Source of the DNA: Bugulina stolonifera
Taxonomy: Eukaryota > Bryozoa > Gymnolaemata > Cheilostomatida > Bugulidae
DNA length: 64,000 bases
Direction: 5' to 3'
NCBI GenBank assembly: GCA_935421135.1
Contig: OW285190.1
Location: 10,240,501 to 10,304,500 of the forward strand
Under the pieces are notes generated by a model. That model ran no database searches, was not told the DNA's origin, and saw only the letters and a list, made by a program, of their open reading frames with translations. The position numbers and the translations under genes are program-made. Every line of letters begins with the position of its first letter. Within the stretch, counting starts at the first letter, position 1. Shown here in pieces: positions 440-48,600 of this stretch.

Positions 440-3400
440 ATGGTTTCAACAGCCGATAATTTCAGGTTAGAACACATGTCTTATATCTCTGAACTATATT
501 GGTTGAGTTTTTGGTGTACTGTTTCACACATGTGTTATTATGAGTTTTATGCAGGGATAACATAAAGCAAGATAGACAGCATCATAATCTATCTCCCCAG
601 AGCCGTTGATTGTGAGAGTTACGCCACCAGAAGTATACAAGAGACCATATTAGACCCATGTAACAAAGGATTACATTGGTCAAATCCTTCTATTGACAAC
701 TTTGATTGGTTCTATGGGCCCAAAATGGCATCTGTAATGTTCTCCCGGTGACACAACTCTCACAATAAACGGCTCTGTATCTACCTATTACTATGGCTAT
801 TATTTAAATACACAACTATTAGAACAAGTCAAGAGTGATGTTACTCACCACAATAAGCTTCATAGAAAGAACCAAGATGTTTTCTACGCTGTGTTTTTCC
901 TCCTTTCCACTGTCTTGAATATTATAAACCTGTATTTATAATTAGAAAACATGTTTTCATCATGTAGAATTCAATTTTACTTTAGTTTAATTTTTGGCCT
1001 TTGGTAATTCTTTTCTAGAGATATAAGTGACATCAAAGCACACCTGTCCAGCCTGTCAACTCCTGATCAGACTGACTCCACAAACAATGACTCTTACGAC
1101 CAGCTGCTCAAACCCGAAGCTATTCTACTCCGTCAGCGACTGCAGACGTTATGTCGCAATGTATTGCTTAACAACCTTGAGTCTGCCCTTGACCTTAAGA
1201 TAGAAACTGATCTGTAAGTTTTAGATTATAGGACAGTTTACACTTGTTGTGGTTCACACAAAAATACATAATGTGACAAGATTTGCATTACATAGATTGA
1301 ATACTGTATGTAAAGCGAAAGAGAACTTTGGTATATTTACGATACATTTTGGGAGTTTTAGTCTCTGGTTAACTAAGTTCTAATCCTTGCAGAAGGAAGG
1401 CTGATGTATCTTCATTTGTGCTTCTGGCACACATCTGTTCAACATAGCTTTGAGCAGCTTTGAATTCTTGATTTTAGTGTTCATGCCATAATAATAATAT
1501 GCTAAAAGTCACCTAATTGGTTTACTCTGTTTTGCATTGAATAGTTGGAACTTTGCTTTCAAAGCACAGATAACTGCGTACCAGCAGGCGAGGCAAGTCA
1601 AATCATCCAATACTAAGAGAGCTGAGATCCAGGCTGATTATACTCTGTTTCTGGAGAATGCTCTTGGTTTCTACATACAGGTAATGAAGTCTGGTCCACA
1701 ACTCATCGAGTCAATAGTGCCTTCCCTTAGTCTATTTATTGTGCACGCTGTGAATAGTTTTATTTGAGCTGAAGTATGGTCACAGTTCCTTGTTACTTTA
1801 TTACTGAGTTGCATCTAGTATGTTTGATGTAATCAAGTAAAGTGATACCAAACTTTTGGAGGTTTATTTTATCTCATTTTTACTTTCTCATATTTGAAAT
1901 GACCCGAATATTAGCCTGTTTGACATGTGTATAAATACATCTGATGTCTATTTATAGTTATTGGAAGATATTTGTGAGACGTTTCACCTCCACCCCCACT
2001 TTCGCCGAAAATACTCTTCATTTGGGATAATACAAGGTAGATGTCGTGCTATGTTACTTACATGTATGGACATTACTTTGTTTATCTCATTTATCAAACA
2101 TAGCTTAGGGAGAGACTAGCTTTGTAGTGCTCAATACACTGTAGGTAATAACAGTTTATGTGTTGTGAATTGTTGGATCTGAAGCATTTATGACTCTGAG
2201 AGTGTGGTTTTAAATACATTAACGATTGTATGTACATTATAATGTGCTGTGTATTCCCAGGTCGGTCAGAGCAAGGAAGGAGAGGACAGGCTAGGGCTCC
2301 AAGCAAGGCATCTAGTATGTATATATGTCAGTATTGTCTGGTTCACCTCGGAGATATCGGTGAGTAGACACTACATACGTAAATAGTTATTGCCATCGTA
2401 ATTATTACATTGTTCTTGGGGTTACCATATAGTTTGCAGATTCATAGTGCAATAAAGTAAACGGGCAAATAACAGTGTGTTATGTATGCCATTCATTGAC
2501 ATATAACCATCATGACTGTAATCACTCTTAATTCAAAACGATTTGTATTTTATTGTAATGCATGTCACATTTTATTCGTTGTAGCCCGATATCTGCCTAA
2601 GATATCATTGGCTGAGAACTATTACAATCTTGCTTCCAGATACGTACCATCCAATGGTAAGTATATAATATATACATAACCATCCAATGGTAAGTATATA
2701 ATATATGCATAACCATCCAATGGTAAGTATATAATATATACATAACCATCCAATGGTAAGTATATAATATATACATAACCATTCAATGGTAAGTATATAA
2801 TATATGCATAACCATTCAATGGTAAGTATATAATATATACATAACCATCCAATGGTAAGTATATAATGTATACATAACCATCCAATGGTAAGTATATAAT
2901 GTATACATAACCATCCAATGGTAAGTATATAATATATACATAACCATTCAATGGTAAGTATATAATATATACATAACCATCTAATGGTAAGTATATAATA
3001 TATACATAACCATCCAATGGTAAGTATATAATAATATTGTATACCTACCATGTATATATTATATACATAACCATCCAGTGGTAATTATATAATATATTGC
3101 AATACAGTGTACATGTACATGGTATGTGTGTATGCATAGACATGATATAGTGTATACTGTAATATACTGTAATGTAGTGTATGCTGCAATATACTGTATA
3201 CTGGTACACATGACACGGCCATTGATATGAAGGATTACTTGATGGATTATTTAATTAAAGAACTCAGTATCCAGGGTCGTCTTATAGGCAGATTAATTAA
3301 GGATTATGTAGATAATTGAATGCTAATATAATGTAATATACAGTAGGCTATATACATGTACATTTTATGTCACAGATATAGTTTTTCCTAGCCTAGTCTG

Positions 3401-6400
3401 CTTTATTCTAACAGCTTTCTATACATTTTAAAAAAACAGATTATGTAAAAGAATCTATTGGGTTTGTGTTTATGCTCCCCAGTATGTTAGTGAGAGTGAC
3501 TGTAATCCTCCTGTAGCTTATAGGCCATATTATGGTCTCTTTCCAAGGGACTCATTACAGTCAATGACTCAATTTTCAAGCAGTAATAATTATGAGAATA
3601 TAACCCTTTGCACTCCAAATTGATCACTTTTATCATGGGATTTGAATTATTTAGGTCAACCATACAACCAATTAGCAATCCTGTGCTCATCAAGGTCAAA
3701 TAAGCTAGCTGTTGCTTACTACTACATAAGAAGTATTGCTGTGAGATCTCCCTTCCCTGTTGCACCAACTAACTTGGAGAAACTCTACTCTAAGCAGATC
3801 AAAGAGTGTGAAAACACTAAGTGAGTTATTTGTTTGGATAGTTCATGGAAGGACTAGTCTTTATATTGATCATACATTGTCCAATTGATAGAACAACTCC
3901 CAATTGTTGGATGCATTGATTTTATCTACAAATAGACGGATTTATATAGAATGTACATATTCATTTGTGCATACATATAAGCATGCATGTATGCATACAT
4001 ATATGCATGCATGTATGCATGCTTATATGTATGTAGACACGTGGACTCAAACTGGGTACAGTCTTACTGTTTCGTGTAATGTGTATTTTTACATGTACTT
4101 TCTCTACATGTGATTGTGTAATAATGGACCTGATTTGTATTTATATTTTCTCTTTTTTATTTTAGTTTTATTTCCAAGAATAAATGGACCCACAATGAAG
4201 TTATCACAGCTTTCCTCTATCTGCAATCTATGGTTCACTTGGAAACAGGTGAGTAGACATCATTTAGTCACTATGGTTACATGCTTATTCAATGTGCCAG
4301 TTATACTGACCTTTATTATTCACGGACACACAGTAAAGGTGAAAACAGACTAGCGAATATATTCGTCACGCTAGGGCGAAGCGATGGCAGCGTGCCAACG
4401 TTTTTCGCGCCAAACGAAGCACACAGGCGATTTTCCATCGCGAAAACGTTGTAGTCCGAGTATACATGTCGAAACAGGCAATTATTCTTATATTGATATT
4501 AGGGCATATTTTAATATCGCGTGTGCCACAACTCGGCTACTAACAGAACTTTTGGATTCATTAAAATATAGAATCTTAAAATAATATAATAATTTAAAAT
4601 AACCATTGCTCAAATTCACTTGTTATGGATGAGTACCAATTAGCAGCCGGCTTGCTTTTTTTTACGTCAGCGTTTGTTGCTCTGAATAGAAGAAGAAATG
4701 CTCGGAGACGACGAGTTAGAAGATGGTGGACTCACCCCATTAATCTAGTCCGGCCAGAGGAAGGAGCTTGGACTCTTTTGATGGAAAGATTTAGGGTTGA
4801 GTTTCCTGACAAGCATGAAGCCTGTTTAAGAATGAATAAAGATAAGTTTGACTTAATATTAAACTATGTTCAGCCAAGAATTGAAAAAGTGGATACCTAC
4901 TTGAGAAAAGCAATACCTAGTTATCAGAGGCTCTGTGTTACACTTTATTATTTAGCTACTGGAGACTCATTTAAGACTTTGTCTCTTTTCTTTCGAATGG
5001 GAGAGTCTACTATCAGAGAAATAGTATATGAGACCTGTCAGGCAATCTGGGACTCAATGCATTCAGATTATTTAAAAACTCCTTCATCTGCTGAAGACTG
5101 GGAAAAAATTGCTACTGATTTCTCCCATCTTTGGAACTTTCCACATTGTGTCGGTGCGATTTACGGCAAACACTGCACTATTCAAGCCCCTCGCAATAGT
5201 GGCAGTGAATATTTTAATTATAAAAAAACATTTAGTATTGTTCTAATGGCTGTTTCAGATGCAAGGTATATGTTTACATACATAGACGTTGGAACACCAG
5301 GTAGATGGAGTGATGGTGGCACCTTCGATCAGTGCAGTTTAAACCAGGTTCTGTCAGATGGTAGACTTGGTCTCCCCCCAAATGCTTCTTTGCCAGGTAA
5401 AGAAAAATAACTATCTTGTTAACAGTGCTGGTGCATCTTTATCTCAAATAGAAGTCACGGGTTTGCTTGATTGGAGAGGGGGTAGTGGTAATGTCTGTTA
5501 GTGTTATTTTTCTTTTGGTTCAAGAGTTGCAGCCCTCTGGCTTGGCTGCAAATCTCTATTATTATATACCATGCTAGTACCTTGTTTTAGGCAGCAATAA
5601 GATCGCTCCATTCACTTTTGTGGCAGATGAAGCATTCCCATTGAAAAACTGCATCATGCGCCCATTCCCTGGTAGAGCGAATAGTTTGGAGAAGCGCATT
5701 TTCAACTTTCGACTATCTGGAGCCCGCCGCACAATTGAGGTGAGTTAGTTCAACTATCTATATTTATTGTTTATATGCGATTCTAGGCTTGCCATATAGA
5801 TTATTGTATTTCTTGATGGCAAATTGGCTTTTGGTACATCAAATTATTCTTTTATAACTTAGTAGTCTAAGAATTTCCAGCTTGACGAGAGCAATATCTA
5901 ATTAACTTTTTTCAAAATTGAAATGAAATTCTGATTCCAAGTCGACAACTTTTCATTAATATATAATCCCTGATTTTACTTTCCAAACTTTCATGAGGCT
6001 GAATGTATATTTTAGAATGCTTTTGGAATAATGGTTTCGAGGTGGAGATGTTTGAGGAGCCACTTACACATGTCACCAGATCATGCCACATCAATAATAC
6101 TTGCCTGCTGTGTGCTTCACAACTTCCTCCGTGAGCAGAAATGCGAGAACTACTGCCCACCAGGCTATGCAGATGCCATGGACATGAATGGCGAAGTTGT
6201 ACAAGGTGGATGGAGAGACAACGGTATAGGAGCTGTGCTCGAACCTATAAATCCAACTGCACATCGTAATCCACCTGCTACTGCTACACAAGTGCGGGAT
6301 ACCTTTATGTCATATTTTAACCAAGAAGGTGCGTTGCAGTGGCAAGTCGCTCATATAAATAGAACATAGAACACACTGTGATTTCATAAATATTATTTGT

Positions 6401-9400
6401 CAGTAATACTAAGTAAGCTACCATGCAATATACCCTTATGATGTAATTTTATTTTTAATTTCTTCCACATGTGCATGTTTTAAAACAATCCCTACTTCTA
6501 GTAGTATGTATGCTTATGTTTAGTAATAATTAATTAAATTCATGCCTGCTTCTGAATATTATATAATTATGCTTCTTTGCTACATGACTTATAAATATTA
6601 TAATATTCTTTACATGCATGTATATTGAATATAAATAAAATCAAGATGCATGTCTCATAAAATATGCTGAAGTGAAGTGAGACTTATTTGTCATGTGCTG
6701 AAATTAGCAAAGCAAAGCACGAATAATGTTTAAAAATATATGAATGTTTAATAACGAGGCGTCATATACTTGGCTAGATAAACAAAGCAGTGTCATATCA
6801 AATATTACCACTTTTCGTCAAATCCTGAGTTTCTTCAGACTGTATATGCTGGGGAAAACTGGCATTGAAAATCAGATCACGGATCTGCCGTTTTAGTAAC
6901 TCGACAGTATACCTGTCATTTAGCTCATCCAATGCTTCAGCTACTTCCTCACCAAATCTAGCATTTTTTGGGGTGGTGGTCCGAGAACGTTGGTTACCAA
7001 TGAAGGAATCCCAACGATCGATCAGTTGCTCCTCAAACAAGCTGCTGTCACCTGACAACTTACGCTTGGCAGCCCGATTAGAGGTCCTACTTGAGGGGCG
7101 ACTGTTTACATGTGTTATTGTTGAAGAACAGGAAGGAAGCTCAGTAGATGGGGCGTTGGAGGACTGGTCATTATTAGCCGGGTCATCTATATCATCATTA
7201 TCAGATGCCTCCTCCATCTGCTCTTCTTCATCTATGATTGCTGGGAGTGTCTCAGTGCTAGGCAAGCTAGATGCTGATCTTATGCTAGAGACATTACTGA
7301 AAGCAATTTGGAGAGAGTTATTACAAAACATGTATATATTATGCACAGAAAAACATACTAATGCAGTTACTAATAGTGATGATCATCACTACTCATACTC
7401 ACCAATATAGTCTGACTCGAAACCAAAGTATTGTAACAATGCTTACATTATTTGACTTCACGCGTAAAATGTATGCATTATAGGACCACAATAAACAACT
7501 AGACCTAGTAGAAATTGCTGACTATCGGAACCTCCAGAAATTCTGGTTGATGTCACACACAGCATCAAATACTGCTGACCTTGCAGCTGTGTTATACACC
7601 GATAGTCACGCTGCAGAGGGTCATTAAGTGACAAGAGGTACATACAGTCATGAAAGAAATAGTCTTCCATGCTAACAACAGCCTTAGAGGCCTGCCTATA
7701 AAATAACATCTCAGCTTGATGCTCACCCACTCCTCGATCTATATGGCAAAAGCCATTCCATTAATGGCATCCAACACCAAGCTTTCTTTGTTGATGCTCC
7801 AGCACCTGACCTCGTCTCTTTCTCTATTTCTCTCTGCTTCCGCACAAGAGTGTCGTTCAAGTTCTTCCATGCTAACTTCAGATCTTGATCTGCAAATGTA
7901 AGTATCAACATAGAAAAAGATATGGACGTGCAAAACATCAGTTTTCATCTTACTAATTCAAGCTTAATTGAAATAACATCGACTTGAATTGAAAGAAAAT
8001 CATCAAATTATAATAATAATAATAATAATTTAATAATAGTTTAATATTAAAATTATATTATATTTTGAAATAATTTTGTATGATATCACCAATCAACCTA
8101 ATCATTTTGATTAAATCCACTAATGTACTATTACTATAATTATTTCAAGTTGAAGTTGGTTACTAAGTAAGTTAATAATGATAACAATTAATTTAGTTAG
8201 TAGGCAACTCACTCGTTCTAAATTAATTAGATCAATAGTTGTAGGCAAAAACCTTATAAATCGTTTTCAATAATCATCCTAGTTTTGATGACATCTAAAT
8301 TAAAAAAACTTTGGTATTTATATTAAATCATATTATAAACTCACACTCAATATTCATAACCTGTGCGATTTCTCTCCAGTTGTTGTCCTTAATATCGGAT
8401 CTGTGGTAATCCTTATGCTTCATGTTGAACAGGCATTCTCTCATTCTAACGTGGTCTATAAGACTTTCTATTTCATCTTTATCTAGCGTATACTTTTCTG
8501 TTTGTCTAGGCATATTGATATTGATTTGTTTAAAAAAGATGAAAGTGAAGGTAAATATTATATTATTATGAATTAAACTTTTTCGGAAACAAACATGCAA
8601 AATGGAATCGGCAGAACAGATACAAGTATAGAGTGGAATCGGTAAAAGTTTACTAGCCAATCAAAATCAAGCGTTATCGAGAGCGAAGCGAAAAATATTA
8701 AACATGCTTGATATTGGGCGAACGTGGCGTTTTTGCTTGATTTTATGACGTCCTGTGGCTCCGCCGTCAAATCGCTCCGAATAACGGCGCGAAATTCGCT
8801 AGTCTGTTTCAACCTTTACTTATTATACATCCTCATATTGGCAATAAGCCAAGCAAATGTGCTAGTTAGTTATTAGCACTGATTCGATTCAACTTGTTAT
8901 ACATCAGTCAATTTTTAATGAGCATCTAATAATTGTAATACAATGTATATCACCATTGACAGTGAATACTTTGTGCACACTAATACATATAATAATATCA
9001 CCATGTACTTAGCACATTAGCTATTCCTTTAATTAATAAAATAAGTATCCTTAATCTCTCTACGCGCAGCTAGACTGGAGTGTTGAATACTGTAGACTGT
9101 GTTCTGTTTGCAGATAAGGAAAAGGCTAGTAAGATATCAGAGCTACTGTGTAGATGTTTAGGATCTCAAGCTATTTTCTCTCTCCTCTCCACACAGAATG
9201 TTTACCACATGGTTACAATTAGTGTATTCACTCTCTCCAATATTGATGATACCGGAGGAGATAACTCTATCACCGATGATGAAAAACATTTTCGTGACGT
9301 ACTCATTGGTTTGATTGGTGAGTAAACATGCTGTGATGTACCTATTATGAGGCATGTCGGAATAGTTATGGACACAGAACGCTGTAATAGTATTCAAAAG

Positions 9401-20254: not shown

Positions 20255-21013
20255 TTACAGGGGGGTTGGACTACAGCCCTCTGTTACAGGTAAATGCTGC
20301 GTTCTGCTTGTCACGGTTGTGTTCACTCTGGTGTCTCTTATGGTTCTCGGTAGGAAACTACCATGGTATATCTGTGAGGTCGCGGAGACCGATGTCAACT
20401 CGCCACGGGCAGCCGATCTGGTGGTCATCGTCATACTTTTGCGGTCTCTAGTAATCTCATCATATGCCAACGAAAGCGCTGAGTGGCGTTCTTCTTCCTG
20501 CAGGATTTTCATAAGGAGAGCTAGCCTGTGGTTCCTACGCCTTTGTTTGAGGGGCTGTAGACCAAGTTCGGAGCATGCCTCAGTGACACTCTCTCGCCCC
20601 CTCAATCTGGCAATAAACCTAACAGCCCTGTGCTGTATCATTTCGAGTGACTCAATGTCTTTGGCTAAGGTCGGGTCCCACACGGTGTCCGCATATTCCA
20701 ATATTGGGCGACACAGGCTAGTGCAAGCTAGTAACCGACCTTCTTTGGGGGCTCCATGCAGAATGTGCTTGATAGCTCCCAGAGTTCTGGAGGCCTTTTC
20801 TTTCTTGAGCGCCATATGTTGGTCAAATTTAAGGTTTGACTGCATGACCACACCGAGGTATGTCGTTTTGTCAACCCATTCCATCACAGTTTCACCTAGC
20901 TTGTATGTTGGTCTACTATTTTGGTTCCCGAAGGCTATGACTTTACATTTCTTGTCATTGAATGGCATTTTCCAATCAACAGACCATTTGTGTATGGCAT
21001 CAATGTTATACAC
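20255..21013 (-). pseudogene. Non-LTR retrotransposon reverse transcriptase, C-terminal fragment (left arm)
   Basis: 252 codons open to a stop. Shows the thumb and post-catalytic part typical of animal LINE reverse transcriptases: IHKWSVDWKMPFNDKKCKV, YLGVVMQSNLKFDQH, RPILEYADTVWDP and IESLEMIQHRAVRF. The catalytic FADD region, the endonuclease and all upstream sequence are missing, so it is 5' truncated. The coding sequence runs through the palindrome spacer (YNIDAIHKW), so this arm is the more native copy. Clade not assigned; CR1, L2 or Jockey-like are all possible. Confidence 0.85.
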
Positions 21014-21115
21014 AAATGGTCTGTTGATTGGATAATGCCATTCAATGACAAGAAATGTAAAGTCATAGCCTTCGGGAACTAAAATAGTAGACCAACATAC
21101 AAGCTAGGTGAAACT

Positions 21116-21748
21116 GTGATGGAATGGGTTGACAAAACGACATACCTCGGTGTGGTCATGCAGTCAAACCTTAAATTTGACCAACATATGGCGCTCAAGA
21201 AAGAAAAGGCCTCCAGAACTCTGGGAGCTATCAAGCACATTATGCATGGAGCCCCCAAAGAAGGTCGGTTACTAGCTTACACTAGCCTGTGTCGCCCAAT
21301 ATTGGAATATGCGGACACCGTGTGGGACCCGACCTTAGCCAAAGACATCGAGTCACTGGAAATGATACAGCACAGGGCTGTTAGGTTTATTGCCAGATTG
21401 AGGGGGCGAGAGAGTGTCACTGAGGCATGCTCCGAACTTGGTCTACAGCCCCTCAAACAAAGGCGTAGGAACCACAGGCTAGCTCTCCTTATGAAAATCC
21501 TGCAGGAAGAAGAACGCCACTCAGCGCTTTCGTTGGCATATGATGAGATTACCAGAGACCGCAAAAGTATGACGATGACCACCAGATCGGCTGCCTGTGG
21601 CGAGTTGACATCGGTCTCCGCGACCTCACAGATATACCATGGTAGTTTCCTACCGAGAACCATAAGAGACACCAGAGTGAACACAACCGTGACAAGCAGA
21701 ACGCAGCATTTACCTGTAACAGAGGGCTGTAGTCCAACCCCCCTGTAA
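21116..21748 (+). pseudogene. Inverted second copy of the reverse-transcriptase fragment (right arm)
   Basis: Same reading as the left arm from EWVDKTTYLGVVMQSNLKF to the shared C-terminus EGCSPTPL. Upstream of 21116 a CAA-to-TAA change (about 21080) interrupts the frame. Other differences include ILHG to IMHG, LLACTSL to LLAYTSL and SAARGE to SAACGE. It stops at the palindrome edge without the longer 3' tail of the left copy. Confidence 0.8.
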
Positions 21749-36100: not shown

Positions 36101-39100
36101 AATTTGATAGCCTGGACTAGTAGTAGACCTACATGTAAACTTTTAATACTGATATTTATTGTACACAGTCATTATTTCATTTTCAAGATTATGACTATTT
36201 TAAAAGTACCAAGTATATTACATAATGTACATGTGTGAATATGACAAATGATCCGCTAATAATAGACATGTGCCAACTTTGTCTATCGACTCTGAAAAAC
36301 GCTAGCAATCAATAATAGGCTTTGCTATAAGCAATCTGTTATACACTGATATATTTTCATACACAGGATAATTATATTATTACACACTACAGTTGGAGTA
36401 CATAAAACATCTACTTTTCTGAATATTGTGTGAAGAGTGTGTAGCACTAGACAATGGTGCTACATATACATGTAGATAAGTAACTTACTGACTTAGTGTT
36501 TGGATTCACTGTGACAATGCATGCATAGATGAAATATTATTGGTGACACTTTACGTATGTTCAAATGTGGAAGTATTACACGTACCAGCTCCGATGTAAT
36601 ACTTGTAGGTATGAATTACGTGCCAACTATTATAACACCACCAGTGACCACTAAGCTGCTATGTAGGACAAATGTTGCTAGAAGTGACAGAATTGGAAGA
36701 GGATGCAGTTCCGTGTTGCATAGTCAGCAATATATCAATGATAGTAAAATTGAAAATAAACATATATTATACACATCATACACTTCCCTTCACAATGAAC
36801 ATCGAGTGTCCTGATGATATATTTTCTGACCAGGCGTCGGTGTATTGAGACTCTATGTTGGGAAGGGAAGTATAAAATCCTGCCTGAACAGGCACACGTA
36901 GCAACTAGCAACGTGGTGGATTCGCAGTGATTCATAACTGATGATACATCCTAATTGGAACAGAATGTGTGAACTTGGTGAAGGCTGAACCAGTTCATCC
37001 TGTTTGTATGTTGTGTTGGTGGGTAATGTCAGGTTGCAAATACCAACCATCATCGCCTGATAACAGAAGTATCACAAACAAAGAACATACTATGTAATCT
37101 TGTATGTGGTCAACCAGGGCAGGTACAACCTCCAATAATGGATTACAAACACATTTTTCCATTACTAAAAATAATACAAGCAACATAATTTACTACTAGT
37201 ACTACAGGCAATAATAGCCAAGCTACAACTGCAGGCACATGCGACCACTTTAAAAGGACATAATATTTCTGTTCCTTATAGTCAAATGCTTGTCAATACT
37301 GCTGTTATGGATATACATGTATTTGGTACTTGCTCACCTAAGGTAAAATCTCTCAAAGGTGACTAGCAACAGTAGTGTGAATATTTATGCCTAGGGAGGG
37401 TGTTCAAACAATGCTATCAGACTCTAACAACATCAGAGTGAATTTTTTTGCAATTTCCAGCTTTGACTCTGTAACTACATATCAGATTTATATCCTGTAA
37501 TTAATTATGTATATGAGTTAAATATAAGTAGGCAAGATTGTCTGATTAAAATATGTGTCATGGCAATTTTATGGACTTTCCTATGTCTGACGACAGAGGT
37601 TTTTATGCTTGCTGTAGGGCTGAAATTCTATGCTAATTAATTGCCATGCCCTGGTATACATGTATTAAGTGGTCCAAATGTAATATGTCTTCTCTAATAG
37701 TTGCTGTGTCAGGAACTACTTGTACCAGTATGCTGCAGATTGCCATGCTCAAGTACTGGCTCACTGCGCATATACACTACAGAATGTGTTTATCAATGGC
37801 CTGTGGGGCCTATCATACTCGTGTTATGCCCTTGGGCTCTTTACCTTGTAATTGTATTGGTGAAGGAACAGTTCGAGTATAGTAGTTAAAAAGAGAACGT
37901 TCCAAAGACGTTCATTTAGAAAACAACCATTACACAACTGTGTAGATTACATAGGGGAACACAACCATTACACAACTGTGTAGATTACATAGGGGAACAC
38001 AACCATTACACAACTGTGTAGATTACATAGGGGAACACAACCATTACACAACTGTGTAGATTACATAGGGGAACACAACCATTACACAACTGTGTAGATT
38101 ACATAGGGGAACACAACCATTACACAACTGTGTAGATTACATAGGGGAACACAACCATTATACAACTGTGTAGATTACATAGGGGAACACAACCATTACA
38201 CAACTGTGTAGATTACATAGGGGAACACAACCATTACACAACTGTGTAGATTACATAGGGGAACACAACCATTATACAACTGTGTAGATTACATAGGGGA
38301 ACACAACCATTACACAACTGTGTAGATTACATAGGGGAACACAACCATTACACAACTGTGTAGATTACATAGGGGAACACAACCATTACACAACTGTGTA
38401 GATTACATAGGGGAACACAACCATTACACAACTGTGTAGATTACATAGGGGAACACAACCATTACACAACTGTGTAGATTACATAGGGGAACACAACCAT
38501 TACACAACTGTGTAGATTACATAGGGGAACACAACCATTACACAACTGTGTAGATTACATAGGGGAACACAACCATTACACAACTGTGTAGATTACATAG
38601 GGGAACACAACCATTACACAACTGTGTAGATTACATAGGGGAACACAACCATTACACAACTGTGTAGATTACATAGGGGAACACAACTCTCAGATAATGC
38701 ATTATTTTTACTTTTTAGTGTTTTCTAAGTTAGTTGCAGTAGTACAAACAAAAAAATGCATAAGCCTAACATTAAAAATAAAAATAAGTTGAAAGCTGGG
38801 AATAGGAATTTAGAGTTTCCAAATAGATGTTTTCCAAACAGACGTATTCAGAAAGTCTTGTTTTTAACTGACATTTTTTAACAGTTGCAAAGTCGTGGCT
38901 ATGTGTCAAATCTGATAAGGTCTAGTAATAGAGCTGTTATATTATATATGAAGCCATGCAAAAAACTGGCATTAAAGCCACGAAATTTTAATGAAACATG
39001 GCATATAGCCTGTTATATTTACCATTCCCATATTGTTTGTTCAGATATACATTAAATATGAATAACATTATTTGAAGTATTCTACAGAAGCTAACAAAGT

Positions 39101-39642: not shown

Positions 39643-42600
39643 ATGGTTGCAGTCTCTACTGATCACTGCTTTCAAAGAGAAGATCGTTCAATCATGGCCG
39701 ACGATACAGCAGCTCCCGACGTTATTATGGCTCGTCGTTCCAGTGACGGCTACTTGACATTCGACCTCAAAATCTCACATATAATCGAACAGGTAAATCT
39801 CTACTCTGTACCTTACATTTACAACTATTTGAGTTGCATGAAGGCACTAAAAGAATTATTAGTTGGCCATTTTCTAAGAATTGAATTTGTTCATACAGAG
39901 AAAAGGCATGTCAGCATACAAGTACATGCCGTAACATGTAGCTAGTGATCAAAAACATTTCGAAGTATGTAGACTGAAGTATATTATATAATTTCAAGTC
40001 ATGCGTAAGAAGACATAGCATTGACCTGGGTGTAGAGTGGGACCACGCAGTGACTTGAATGTCAGTTTGTACAGAACTCTCTTAGCTATAGAGTTATTGT
40101 GAAATGTCAATCGGTGAATACCAGCACCAGGGGGCAGTCTAGTCAACCTTGATAAAATACTAAATAGATAAAATAAGTAGGCCTGCATGTATAGGCTACA
40201 CTACACACCTATCCCAATGCAATTTGAGGTCAAATTTTGCATAACTGTGGTGTTTATAACTGCAATAAACTTTTTAATTATTTCGTAATGAAAATATCAA
40301 AATAATAAATTGTTATTATGTATTATTATTGTTATACATTTGGTATTATAGCTTCCTTGTACGTTAACCTTTACCTTGGATCTTGTTAACTTTAGACATT
40401 AAGAAGGGCGTTCAACAGACCAGACTTTAGGAAATCTACAATAAAAGTTGTGAATGAAGCTGACTTGGCTACCAGTGATAATAACAATCTAAGTGACACC
40501 AAAAAGCTACCAAATATGAAAACTAAGGTGAGTTTTCATGACTAGCAATAAGATTGGTTATAAATACATGTAGTTAATGTTCTCATGGGAACATAATATT
40601 AAATTGCACATTTTCATTATTAATTCACAGCTTGATATATAAATCATCAATTTAAATAGAAGCACTCATTGAGAGACCAAGTGCATCACATCAGTGATCT
40701 GCTCACTCAAGCATAACAGTCATTGAACTGGTACCTGGATTGACCAGGGATTGACCTATATAACAGGAGATTAGTAAAGAATGCCTACTTTAACTATTTT
40801 TGTAGCCACTAATGTAATAATTATAATAATTATTCCAAAATCTTAATCAGATGTCACTTCCATGGTTATAAAGTGAATCATGTAGGTTAATAGAAGGTTA
40901 ATTATACCTCCAGTACTACCTACATTTTGTACTAGTAGGCTACTTACTCTAATATGTAAGCTGAGGCTACTTTCTTCAGTTTTTTTTTGTAAAACTCACC
41001 TTGTAATAAAGGCCATACTTGAAGAATTGTCTGAAATTAAAGCACAATCACTATTGGCTAATATCAACTATTCAGCTGTTACATCATGTTCAGCCATTTT
41101 GATATAATCATCGTAAACCTAGTAATGGTATAGTCAATGTTCAATGACTCGACTATAGAATACATAAATATGAATAAAAGGAGAAGAACTGCATTCAAGT
41201 AAAACTAACAACTTCATTGGTTTTAATTTCTTTTAGCGAATTAAGTCATCTCCAAGTGAGGAATCTTCAGCCATGACTCGTTCATTGAATTGTAAATCTT
41301 TAGAGGCCGTTAAGAGGTCACATTCAGAAGGTTCTTTATACACTGGAGTGTCAACTTCATCAGAATCTACGTCGTCTGCCAAAGGTATTTGTTATATTTT
41401 GATGATCACAATTAGAATAGCTATACAGAGATTATAATGTAAATCGTTGTTGCAGATGTGTATGCAATATGCAGAAATTAACATTTTTTCGGACAAATAC
41501 TTAGATGCATTGCTTATTCAACTTCCAACCTTGAATGGGTAGAACTATTTTTGTCGCTGCTGCGCGCCATTCTAAGCATTACGCGCCATTCTAAGCATTA
41601 CGCGCCATTCTAAGCATTACGCGCCATTCTAAGCATTACGCGCCATTCCAAGCATTACGCGCCATTCTAAGCATTACGCGCCATTCTAAGCATTACGCGC
41701 CATTCTAAGCATTGCGCACTGAGTCTATTCAAGCAATTAATAGAAATCACGAAAGAGGGCGTGGCAAAGAGGTCAAGTTATAGACTTAGTGCATCAGTAT
41801 CTAATCACATTAACCTTGCTAAAATAACAATTCTTTTGCCAAACGTTACAGTCAGTTTTATATAAAGTAAATAAACAACAAGGTCCTGTCTAGAAAAGGA
41901 CCATATTGAACTTTGGGTAATCTAATAATTAGCCAACCAGTGGAGCCGCTAGTAGCCACAAGGAACTGCAGTCGTGTTCTGTGTTGACTTTGCACTCAGT
42001 TGGTAGAAGAGTTTGACTGACAAACCTCAAAACTTTCTGATTTAGTCATTTGTGAAGTTGAATGCTGAACAACTAACATACATTAAAGTTCCAGGGAAGG
42101 GAGTGTAAAGCAATACAAAGTTAGTGATTCACAGAATCTCTAGACAAAGCATTAAAAATGTCAAAGGAAAACTTCTAAATAAGTTTCCGTTATTGCATTA
42201 TTTTTTGCTAAAGTCAACTTAAACTGCATGGCTTCTTCCATGATGGTGTTGACACATTCACACCTGCTGGGTTATGACATTATTATACGCCTGTCACTTT
42301 CTGGTATTTCTCAGAAACATGCAAATACCCTCTGTCCTGACACCAGAGGACCACTGCAGGTTTGACCTCTAGCAGAGGTTTATAACATACAGTGGCTCAC
42401 TATTAGTTTCTACTGGTATAGTTTGATTAATACAATTAATAAATAAATTTAATTTTGCAAATTCTTTTATGCTAAATAATATTATCATACACCTGTCACG
42501 TTCTGATATGCCTCAGAAACATGTAGTTCTAAGAAGTGCCTTGTGTTATTTATGTCTTTTATTTCATGACATAAAAATAGATAATATGGTAGGAATATGC

Positions 42601-45600: not shown

Positions 45601-48600
45601 TAAAATGGCTCATATAAATTCAAATCTTCTCTATGGCAAGATTAAAGCAGTTTGTTAGTTTGATACCAAACCCGGAGGGCACCGTCTTGTATGTGTCTGA
45701 TTTCAACTTCCTGAAGTTTCTAACTCGGGTGGACAACTCCGAAATATATGGACTTCTCTACTAAATTTACAATATACAGCAGAACTAATAATAACAACAC
45801 TAGGAATACTAAGTAATGTCAATCAATTAGCTGAAAGATGTGATTGATAGAAATGGTATTTCCTGTTCTCAGGTTTCGGTGTATTGATAGAAATGATATT
45901 TTCTGTTCACAGTACTTGGTGTATTGATAGAAATGATATTTCCTGTTCACAGGGTTCAGTGTATTGATAGAAGTGATATTTCCTGCTCACAGGGTTCAGT
46001 GTATTGATAGAAATGATATTTTCTGTTCACAGGACTCGGTGTATTGATAGAAATGGTATTTCCTGTTCACAGTACTCTGTGTATTGATAGAAATGATACT
46101 TTCTGTTCACAGGACTTAGTGTAGAAGAAAAGAAACAGTTTCAAAGATCAATAGCTAACGCTTCTCTTTGTCCTTATGAGAGAAATAGGAGCTTGGATAG
46201 AGTAGAGAGTAAGTGGATGCGCTATAATACTAATTATTAGGAGAGAGTAAATGCAGTCTATATTCTTTTACATGTGCATGTGTACATGCTTTATATGGAG
46301 TAAGTAATCTGATATACATGTACATGCACGTACTTACATGATAATGTACGTACATACTGTAGTGTAGCCCTATGTTACTAGGAAGTAAGTTATTGATTAA
46401 CAATTACTGACTGTATTGAATCACACATAAGTAGGCATCTACAGACAGTGTTTAAAAACTACTAATCGATTTAATCATAGACACATGTGGTAATTACATC
46501 ATGGAGTGACGAGTGTAACAGAAATACTTTAGGTTCCGCCTCCTACAATATTTACACAATATTACACACATTAGCAGCAGCTAGTAGCTTACTGTTTTGT
46601 TACTAGTTTGTACTGTGGAGGTAATATGATTGTTGCAAAAAGATTCTAAAAACTATAGTATCTTCCAATTTGTTCAAATAGTGCAAGAAATTTAGCATGT
46701 GACATTTAATATGTTTCAAAGTTTTTGCCAGTCTTGTCTCAATATGTCAATATAAACAACAGAACCCCTTTAGGCCAGGCTATGGAAATGGCTGAAGAAG
46801 GTTTAATTTTTTTTTAAAACTGAGATAATATGATGAAGCAAAACAAACTACTCTAGTGATACATATAGAAGCATTTCAAACATGTATGTCAAACCAGTAG
46901 CTCTTGGGGAGTTCTGTGTGTGGGTAGTTAGTATACCTCAGACCTCAGGCTGTTTACACATTACGCAATAGAGTTGCCTAAGTGAATATCTTGCACCATG
47001 AAATTGTGTAATCTTTTATTGCAATGCTAGCCAAGATTTCCTTATTCTCTGATATATCCATTTCCTGTTATGCCCCATTCAATCAATCAATGACATGGCC
47101 TATGTCAACTACCTCCTTTTACACAATATACATATATATACATTTTGCTATTTCCTTTGGAGATCCATATAGATTTTAGCCCACAGGCTACTGTATACAC
47201 ATAAGTGTTGTGTAGGGAGCTCAAGGACTCTAGCAAATGCTGTGAGCCTTGAATGGGTTATTCTAATACTGAAGTTGTCCTCTCTCTTTCCTATTGAACA
47301 CTCATTTGATGTGAGAATGGACAACTCCAAAGTTATAGTTTGATTTTGTACATAAAATTATTTGTTTTATAGGTCCAGGCCCAATCATTGAATGCCTGGA
47401 TGGAGAGTAGACAATATATTTTAGGTAATTATAATGCAGATGCTTGCATTGCCTAGTTGAATTTGCTTCATAGCTTAAGCATCTAATAAATATGCTTAAC
47501 TTGTTGTTCATAATCGCTAGTAGCTTTTATTTCCTGCAATAGGCATGTACTACGCCATAAAACTAAATAATAAGTTGATACTTATGGTAGAAAAAGGATT
47601 CCCTTAATATTAGCAGGCTGAGCTGCCTCTTAATATGTTGTGGTTCCTAGTATTATGTATAACAGTTTGCTTGGTTGTTGTAATATTTAGCTTTCTGTGG
47701 AATTGTCTCCACAATTCAGATCTGAAAACAGCTGTCCACTTTGACTGACAACAAAAATTAACATATAGGCCTAGACTACATACTTCTACAACAAACTGAA
47801 ACACGTGCTGATCAAGAAGGTGGAAGTTGAAATAACCTTATACGTGTTTCTGGATATACAAGGGTGTTTTATTAAACATCATGGCATACAATAAGTATTA
47901 GTTTATGTTATGATTTCACATCCTGATCAGAATGTTCCGAAAAATACCATTTCGTTTACTGGTAGAGTTAATAACTTTCAACATATTACTATTGCTATTT
48001 ACATGTAGCCTGTGTTGATTGTTGTGATGAATTACATTCTATCTCGCACATAATGTGAGCACATTTTTCACTGATTGTGTGACCTAGAAAATGCATCGCT
48101 GTATTATATTGACATGCTATATTGAGAAAGCTTCACCAGTATAGGGTGAGAAAATATGTCCCATTGCTATGATGGTGGGTCTGAAGTGGCCATATACATG
48201 TACATTGTATATATTATGTACATGTATGTAGGCTACAACTACATGTATATATACATGTACATTGTATATATTATGTACATGTATGTACATGTATATATAC
48301 AATGTAATAAACACATATACTATGAACAGAACTTTTTTGAGATGAAACTAAGCTTACATTTGTTTTACGTACAGCATTATCAAGGGTTCATTACCTACTC
48401 TCTTTTCAGGAAGGTAAGAACTGTAAGCATAACTTCACTATGTTTTGCTTGCAGAACAAACTGTTGGAGGTACATGTATATCACCAGAGAGGGACAGATC
48501 TCCAGATATCGAGGTAGATGACCCTTTTGAAGATCCAGTAGATCTTCCATCGTCTGATGATCAAAGCAGCAACCATTGTTCTGAGAGCTCCGTCTGCACT

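Follow-up and report, generated by a model that had tools for sequence, protein, structure and literature searches.

In the SMG7 gene of the bryozoan Bugulina stolonifera, an intron begins with a minisatellite whose twelve units each contain a copy of the exon-intron border, donor site included. This array probably arose by tandem duplication of the SMG7 border itself, to 12 copies, and is of the kind described in amphioxus as 'mirages'; its eleven extra donors are likely passengers that would be spliced out as part of the intron, and not a switch that regulates the gene. Table 1 lists the coordinates, which refer to the window, i.e., the whole 64,000-nucleotide stretch of DNA that was analysed; the window is positions 10240501–10304500 of chromosome 4.

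Table 1. Features of the two border minisatellites in the window and of the SMG7 exons around the first. A slash marks a splice junction.
Feature	Position	Strand	Evidence
SMG7 exon, ending …RYLPKISLAENYYNLASRYVPSN G/	2585..2656	+	human SMG7 1ya0 alignment, translation
Last 11 exon bases, ACCATCCAATG, exonic part of repeat unit 1		+	11-base exonic suffix also in unit 2
Minisatellite, 12 units x 33 bp, ACCATCCAATG/GTAAGTATATAATATATACATA	2646..3041	+	TRF, unit comparison
12 identical donors ATG/GTAAGTAT, first 2656/2657, last 3019/3020, every 33 bp	2654..3027	+	
TAA in the SMG7 frame, unit 1; included by every donor except the first	2677..2679	+	translation
Decayed relic of a unit, with GGTAATTAT in place of the donor	3070..3097	+	TRF, reading
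Following SMG7 exon, G/GT CAA CCA TAC (GQPYN…)	3654..3820	+	homology, translation
Second border minisatellite, 7 units x 40 bp, acceptor in each (…TTCCTGTTCACAG/GACTCGGTGT)	45843..46123	+	TRF, reading

The SMG7 border and its copies

An earlier, sequence-only reading of this DNA had named the gene SMG7, and homology bears this out: 278 residues from seven exons match human SMG7 (1ya0) with an E-value of 9.5e-63, and the translation contains the Pfam domains EST1 and EST1_DNA_bind. As VPSNGQPYNQLAIL aligned to 1ya0 straight across the junction (VPSN-G/…QPYN), homology fixes both the first donor, which is in phase 1 (AAT G/GT), and the acceptor at 3653/3654. Unit 1 is likewise the coding copy by homology; the authentic border is the one nearest the exon, and the other copies are intronic. 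An SMG7 intron also holds a Harbinger-like transposon at 4332–8820, with DDE_Tnp_4 pieces on the plus strand, a MADF-domain piece on the minus strand and 27-bp terminal inverted repeats that are 93% alike; we take it to be of the Harbinger type. SMG7-like exon sequence, read by eye, seems to restart past the transposon, near 10.1 kb.

The same reading had described a repeat unit that crosses the exon-intron border and twelve identical donors spaced 33 bp apart, and both descriptions hold. Each unit contains 11 exonic bases and a donor (G/GTAAGTAT), unit starts run from 2646 and 2679 to 3009 at a constant spacing of 33, and the donor 11-mer ATGGTAAGTAT is present in 12 of 12 units (2654 to 3017) and absent from the opposite strand of the window. 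The units differ from their consensus by 0–2 bases, except for the last unit, which differs by 6. Common to all twelve are unit positions 8–24, which span −4 to +13 relative to the donor; between donors 1 and 2, the identity extends from −11 to +17. Changes occur at −6 or −5 in the units at 2778, 2811, 2943 and 2976, and at +14 in those at 2844 and 2877. These few inter-unit changes all sit outside the donor, but chance allows this, and selection holding the donors identical is unsupported. TRF called the array at 2646–3097 with 13.8 copies and 90% matches, in which the stretch beyond the 12 units is the relic at 3070. The array donors are predicted to pair with the end of U1 at −11.0 kcal/mol, joint second among the seven SMG7 donors traced.

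In a search of the 235-Mb genome at up to 3 mismatches, the 24-base core of the unit had 13 matches, each of them at the SMG7 array, and a control had 0. A dispersed repeat or mobile element was rejected as the source of the unit, as the core is confined to one locus. Matches of about 70% to the array exist elsewhere, and the four such loci examined by TRF or by reading were other arrays with other units.

Slippage or unequal exchange probably copied a stretch that included the last 11 bases of the exon. Duplication of the border would be nearly neutral, since the exon end never loses its intact copy; copies would then pile up on the intron side, with the first copy alone staying coding. That the real array is absent or far shorter, and that the assembly or its haplotypes created it, has a negligible probability. 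The 400 bp of the array are well under HiFi read length, and comparable arrays are present elsewhere in the assembly. The assembly itself, tzBugStol2.1, has 52-fold HiFi coverage and a QV of 55.5, and an alternate haplotype (GCA_935421085.1) and RNA-seq (ERR10123683) exist for the species (PMC10213821). In favour of an artefact, one draft genome of amphioxus apparently contained a mirage that was wrongly assembled (PMC3087553). An assembly artefact is an unlikely source of the SMG7 array.

Border arrays at other genes

Copies of exon-intron borders were found in tandem on the donor side at SMG7 and at four further loci, and on the acceptor side at two. A cationic amino-acid transporter (CAT), located through its likeness to the SMG7 array, has a 30-bp donor array at the end of the exon …WTRFGVWMAIG, where the junction aligned to CAT1. 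Donor arrays also lie at the end of an exon of axonemal dynein heavy chain 10 (DNAH10; L086, E 2.1e-28), where the next exon continues DWFFPWP, and at an exon with a protein match in prolyl 4-hydroxylase alpha (P4H; L090). In one of 30 kinase loci (L055), the intron consists mostly of diverged copies of its own donor border, with TRF periods of 37, 46 and 83; the border 24-mer, set 3 bases late, recurs at 20/24 identity, compared with at most 18 in 1000 shuffles. On the acceptor side, the unit of an array at USP39 (L091), a gene on the opposite strand, contains the first 10 exon bases.

The other acceptor array is the second one in Table 1, which is present at one locus only. Its last acceptor is the start of a predicted exon (46113–46208), and an upstream exon ending …DWIER G/ would be in phase with this acceptor (predicted junction). 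No Pfam family was found for the gene behind this array, and its one distant homologue aligns with just a part of the last exon. Two further arrays were also seen: a second one in the prolyl 4-hydroxylase intron (L095, about 291–670, on C1), with a 21-bp period by eye (CTACTTACTGTGACCTATATA), and one of 2.5 kb at L009:1490–4024 (C11:1964489–1967023), ATGTAAGTATATA-like on the minus strand with a basic period of 13 bp, in which many units contain the donor-like word GTAAGTAT.

In this genome, GGTAAGT three times in tandem with gaps of 8–38 was matched 1940 times in forward and 1788 times in reverse orientation (3,728), compared with 100 and 59 (159) for the reversed word; this comparison uses one control word and counts matches rather than arrays. 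As a single word, GGTAAGT is about as frequent as its reverse (31 and 27 occurrences across 177 kb of loci, 14 and 18 in the window). The 100 matches listed, all forward, fall into ten array loci on chromosome 1, within its first 1.56 Mb, and all ten were fetched. Among these listed matches, an exon with a protein match lies at the array edge at five of the ten loci (L085, L086, L090, L091 and L093). Apart from DNAH10, P4H and USP39, these are a MENTAL domain exon with a weak match and a donor array at its end (L085, 22.1 bits, cut-off 22) and a kinase on the opposite strand, where the array only abuts the exon start (L093). No such exon was found at the other five (L087, L088, L089, L092 and L094); L087 has a short open stretch only, and L088 and L089 do not differ from each other over the 160 bases printed. 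Three tandem copies of TTTACAG, an acceptor word, gave 701 matches compared with 73 for its reverse. This excess is less clean than that of GGTAAGT, as TTTACAG already outnumbers its reverse about twofold as a single word (64 vs 28 in the loci, 14 vs 10 in the window) and a dispersed 25-bp family inflates the count. Among the matches listed, TTTACAGGAACGCATCAACATTACT (25 bp) forms short arrays at about seven separate places on chromosome 1 and is possibly part of a mobile element.

Tandem-repeat cover around 52 Pfam-anchored loci (30 kinase, 22 ABC) was 2.6% within the match and 1.8% up to 50 nt outside it, and further out 5.1% at 50–150 nt, 4.0% at 150–400, 6.2% at 400–1000 and 7.4% beyond; the sample is small, and as many matches hold stops, introns are counted in. 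With no rise in cover next to exon edges, these loci give no sign that the border is a hotspot of repeat birth. One of the 52 loci (L055) has a border-spanning array, and the arrays at L044 and L062 lie 28–29 nt outside the match without spanning a border. Minisatellites abound in this genome, and some of them include a border. The window also contains near-perfect, possibly recent arrays at 37919–38687 (38 bp x 20, 99%) and 41563–41717 (19 bp x 8, 97%).

The premature stop and the choice of donor

For the sequence-only reading, this array was an NMD feedback loop in waiting, with seven sense codons and a TAA after each border, a premature stop from any later donor and a period divisible by three that keeps the added units in the same frame. 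The codons and the stop are there, as reading past donor 1 gives GGT AAG TAT ATA ATA TAT ACA TAA. Use of a later donor would indeed bring in a premature stop; however, since the TAA of unit 1 precedes every later donor, divisibility of 33 by three does no work and is irrelevant to the outcome. A later-donor form would carry this TAA in the manner of a poison exon. Early stops are nevertheless common to the SMG7 introns tested: read-through of six of six meets a stop after 1–28 codons (seven donors traced), and a premature stop is therefore expected of any late donor. Reading past the first donor also stays open through all units fetched in the P4H array and for the first three units of the CAT array, whereas it meets stops in the DNAH10 and L055 arrays. 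This means that the arrays have no common stop logic.

It is therefore very improbable that the array is a feedback switch in which later donors are sometimes used, the unit-1 TAA leads to NMD, low NMD raises the SMG7 message and array length sets the gain. Any later donor would include the TAA, all twelve donors are strong and identical, and in plants SMG7 is itself an NMD target, through its 3'UTR (PMC3711448). However, similar arrays occur at unrelated genes, the stop is neither shared among arrays nor peculiar to this SMG7 intron, and the misspliced message would encode a truncated protein. Sparing that message from NMD would yield no SMG7 by itself, so that the loop stays unclosed without a second step. 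A purpose-built NMD feedback, as the earlier reading had it, is thus unsupported.

If only the first donor is used, as the passenger interpretation has it, position, exon context (exon definition) or the order of transcription would decide, and hardly local sequence. Given the identity of the donors from −4 to +13, and of donors 1 and 2 from −11 to +17, local sequence hardly discriminates between them and position must. By analogy with amphioxus, whose mirages reportedly leave splicing undisturbed (PMC3087553, PMC3902484), the first donor would be used, as it alone adjoins a real exon and is transcribed first. An unlikely alternative in our estimate is a tolerated, noisy choice, in which all donors are used somewhat, mostly giving transcripts with premature stops that NMD clears, and the array is a mild load rather than a regulator. 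The identity of 12 of 12 donors would allow this. In vertebrates, SRSF1 and hnRNP A1 shift the use of competing donors, the former favouring the intron-proximal of two and the latter the distal one (PMC5585400), and the preference of SRSF1 could mean use of later donors, against a model in which only the first is used. The reportedly normal splicing of the amphioxus Adh, troponin C and globin mirages (PMC3087553, PMC3902484) argues against noisy choice. A long shot is that near-perfect arrays of U1 sites at Bugulina exon ends are kept rather than merely tolerated. They would act as landing strips for U1 snRNP at the start of AT-rich introns, shielding these from premature polyadenylation and supplying spare donors; exon ends would be read by position alone, and the SMG7 array, folded into a single long hairpin, would be the most extreme example. 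The basis for this reading is the ratio of tandem GGTAAGT to reversed-word matches, 23 to 1.

Folding could also bear on donor choice. The SMG7 unit has self-complementary elements (ACCAT-cca-ATGGT and GTATATAATATATAC), and the predicted fold of exon plus array RNA has −166.3 kcal/mol, compared with a shuffle mean of −105.4 (z −10.3). Units predicted to pair together could hide the later donors from U1. However, the predicted local hairpin over donor 1 (−7.7) is stronger than that over donor 2 (−3.3), which is the wrong way round for local hiding of later donors. Compared with shuffles, three SMG7 units have a z of −4.9, and z lies between +0.5 and −2.3 for 11 further arrays, in a test that folded the plus strand of each locus, although the L091 and L093 genes are antisense, and that anchored L055 3 bases late. 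As only one of 12 arrays (SMG7) clearly beats its shuffles, hairpins are unsupported as a general cause of such arrays. Folding is an unlikely general route to array tolerance; it may, in these models, be relevant to SMG7.

Comparison with known border repeats

Amphioxus mirages have been described in Adh3, the globins BflGb6 and BflGb9, troponin C and PGBD5, where they span borders and vary in length (PMC3087553, PMC3902484). The SMG7 array resembles them in its minisatellite-like border copies, which occur on the donor or acceptor side and carry spare AG/GT signals in a gene that is still coding. Unlike them, it lies in Bryozoa, with 12 strong donors and a nearly self-complementary unit. Length differences and normal splicing are features reported for the amphioxus arrays. 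Internal tandem repeats at exon-intron borders also occur in human segmental duplications (PMC2812944), and these share units of about 30 bp and minisatellite expansion at borders with the SMG7 array. The human repeats are tied to new introns in recent paralogues, whereas the SMG7 flanks are conserved and no new intron was seen. Plant SMG7 autoregulation is comparable in that the SMG7 message is NMD-sensitive; it depends, however, on a long, intron-containing 3'UTR and not on donor arrays (PMC3711448).

In the literature searched, we found no report of border minisatellites in Bryozoa, mirages being met in amphioxus papers only, and no paper joining bryozoan, tandem repeat, intron and splice. 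Border minisatellites are thus already known, from amphioxus, and Bryozoa is a new phylum for them as far as this search extends. Their presence at several genes in another phylum provides material for studying intron growth or origin by border duplication. Twelve matching donors in one intron are a natural experiment, and existing RNA-seq of the species makes the question of donor use directly addressable.

Two observations concern other parts of the window. At 20255–21748, two open frames on opposite strands encode nearly the same protein (TTYLGVVMQSNLKFDQHMALKKEKASRTLGAIKHI...); they resemble reverse-transcriptase fragments, and a Pfam search of one of the frames gave no match. The window also contains a mitochondrial EF-Tu, whose best named match is that of another bryozoan, Watersipora subatra, at 74%.
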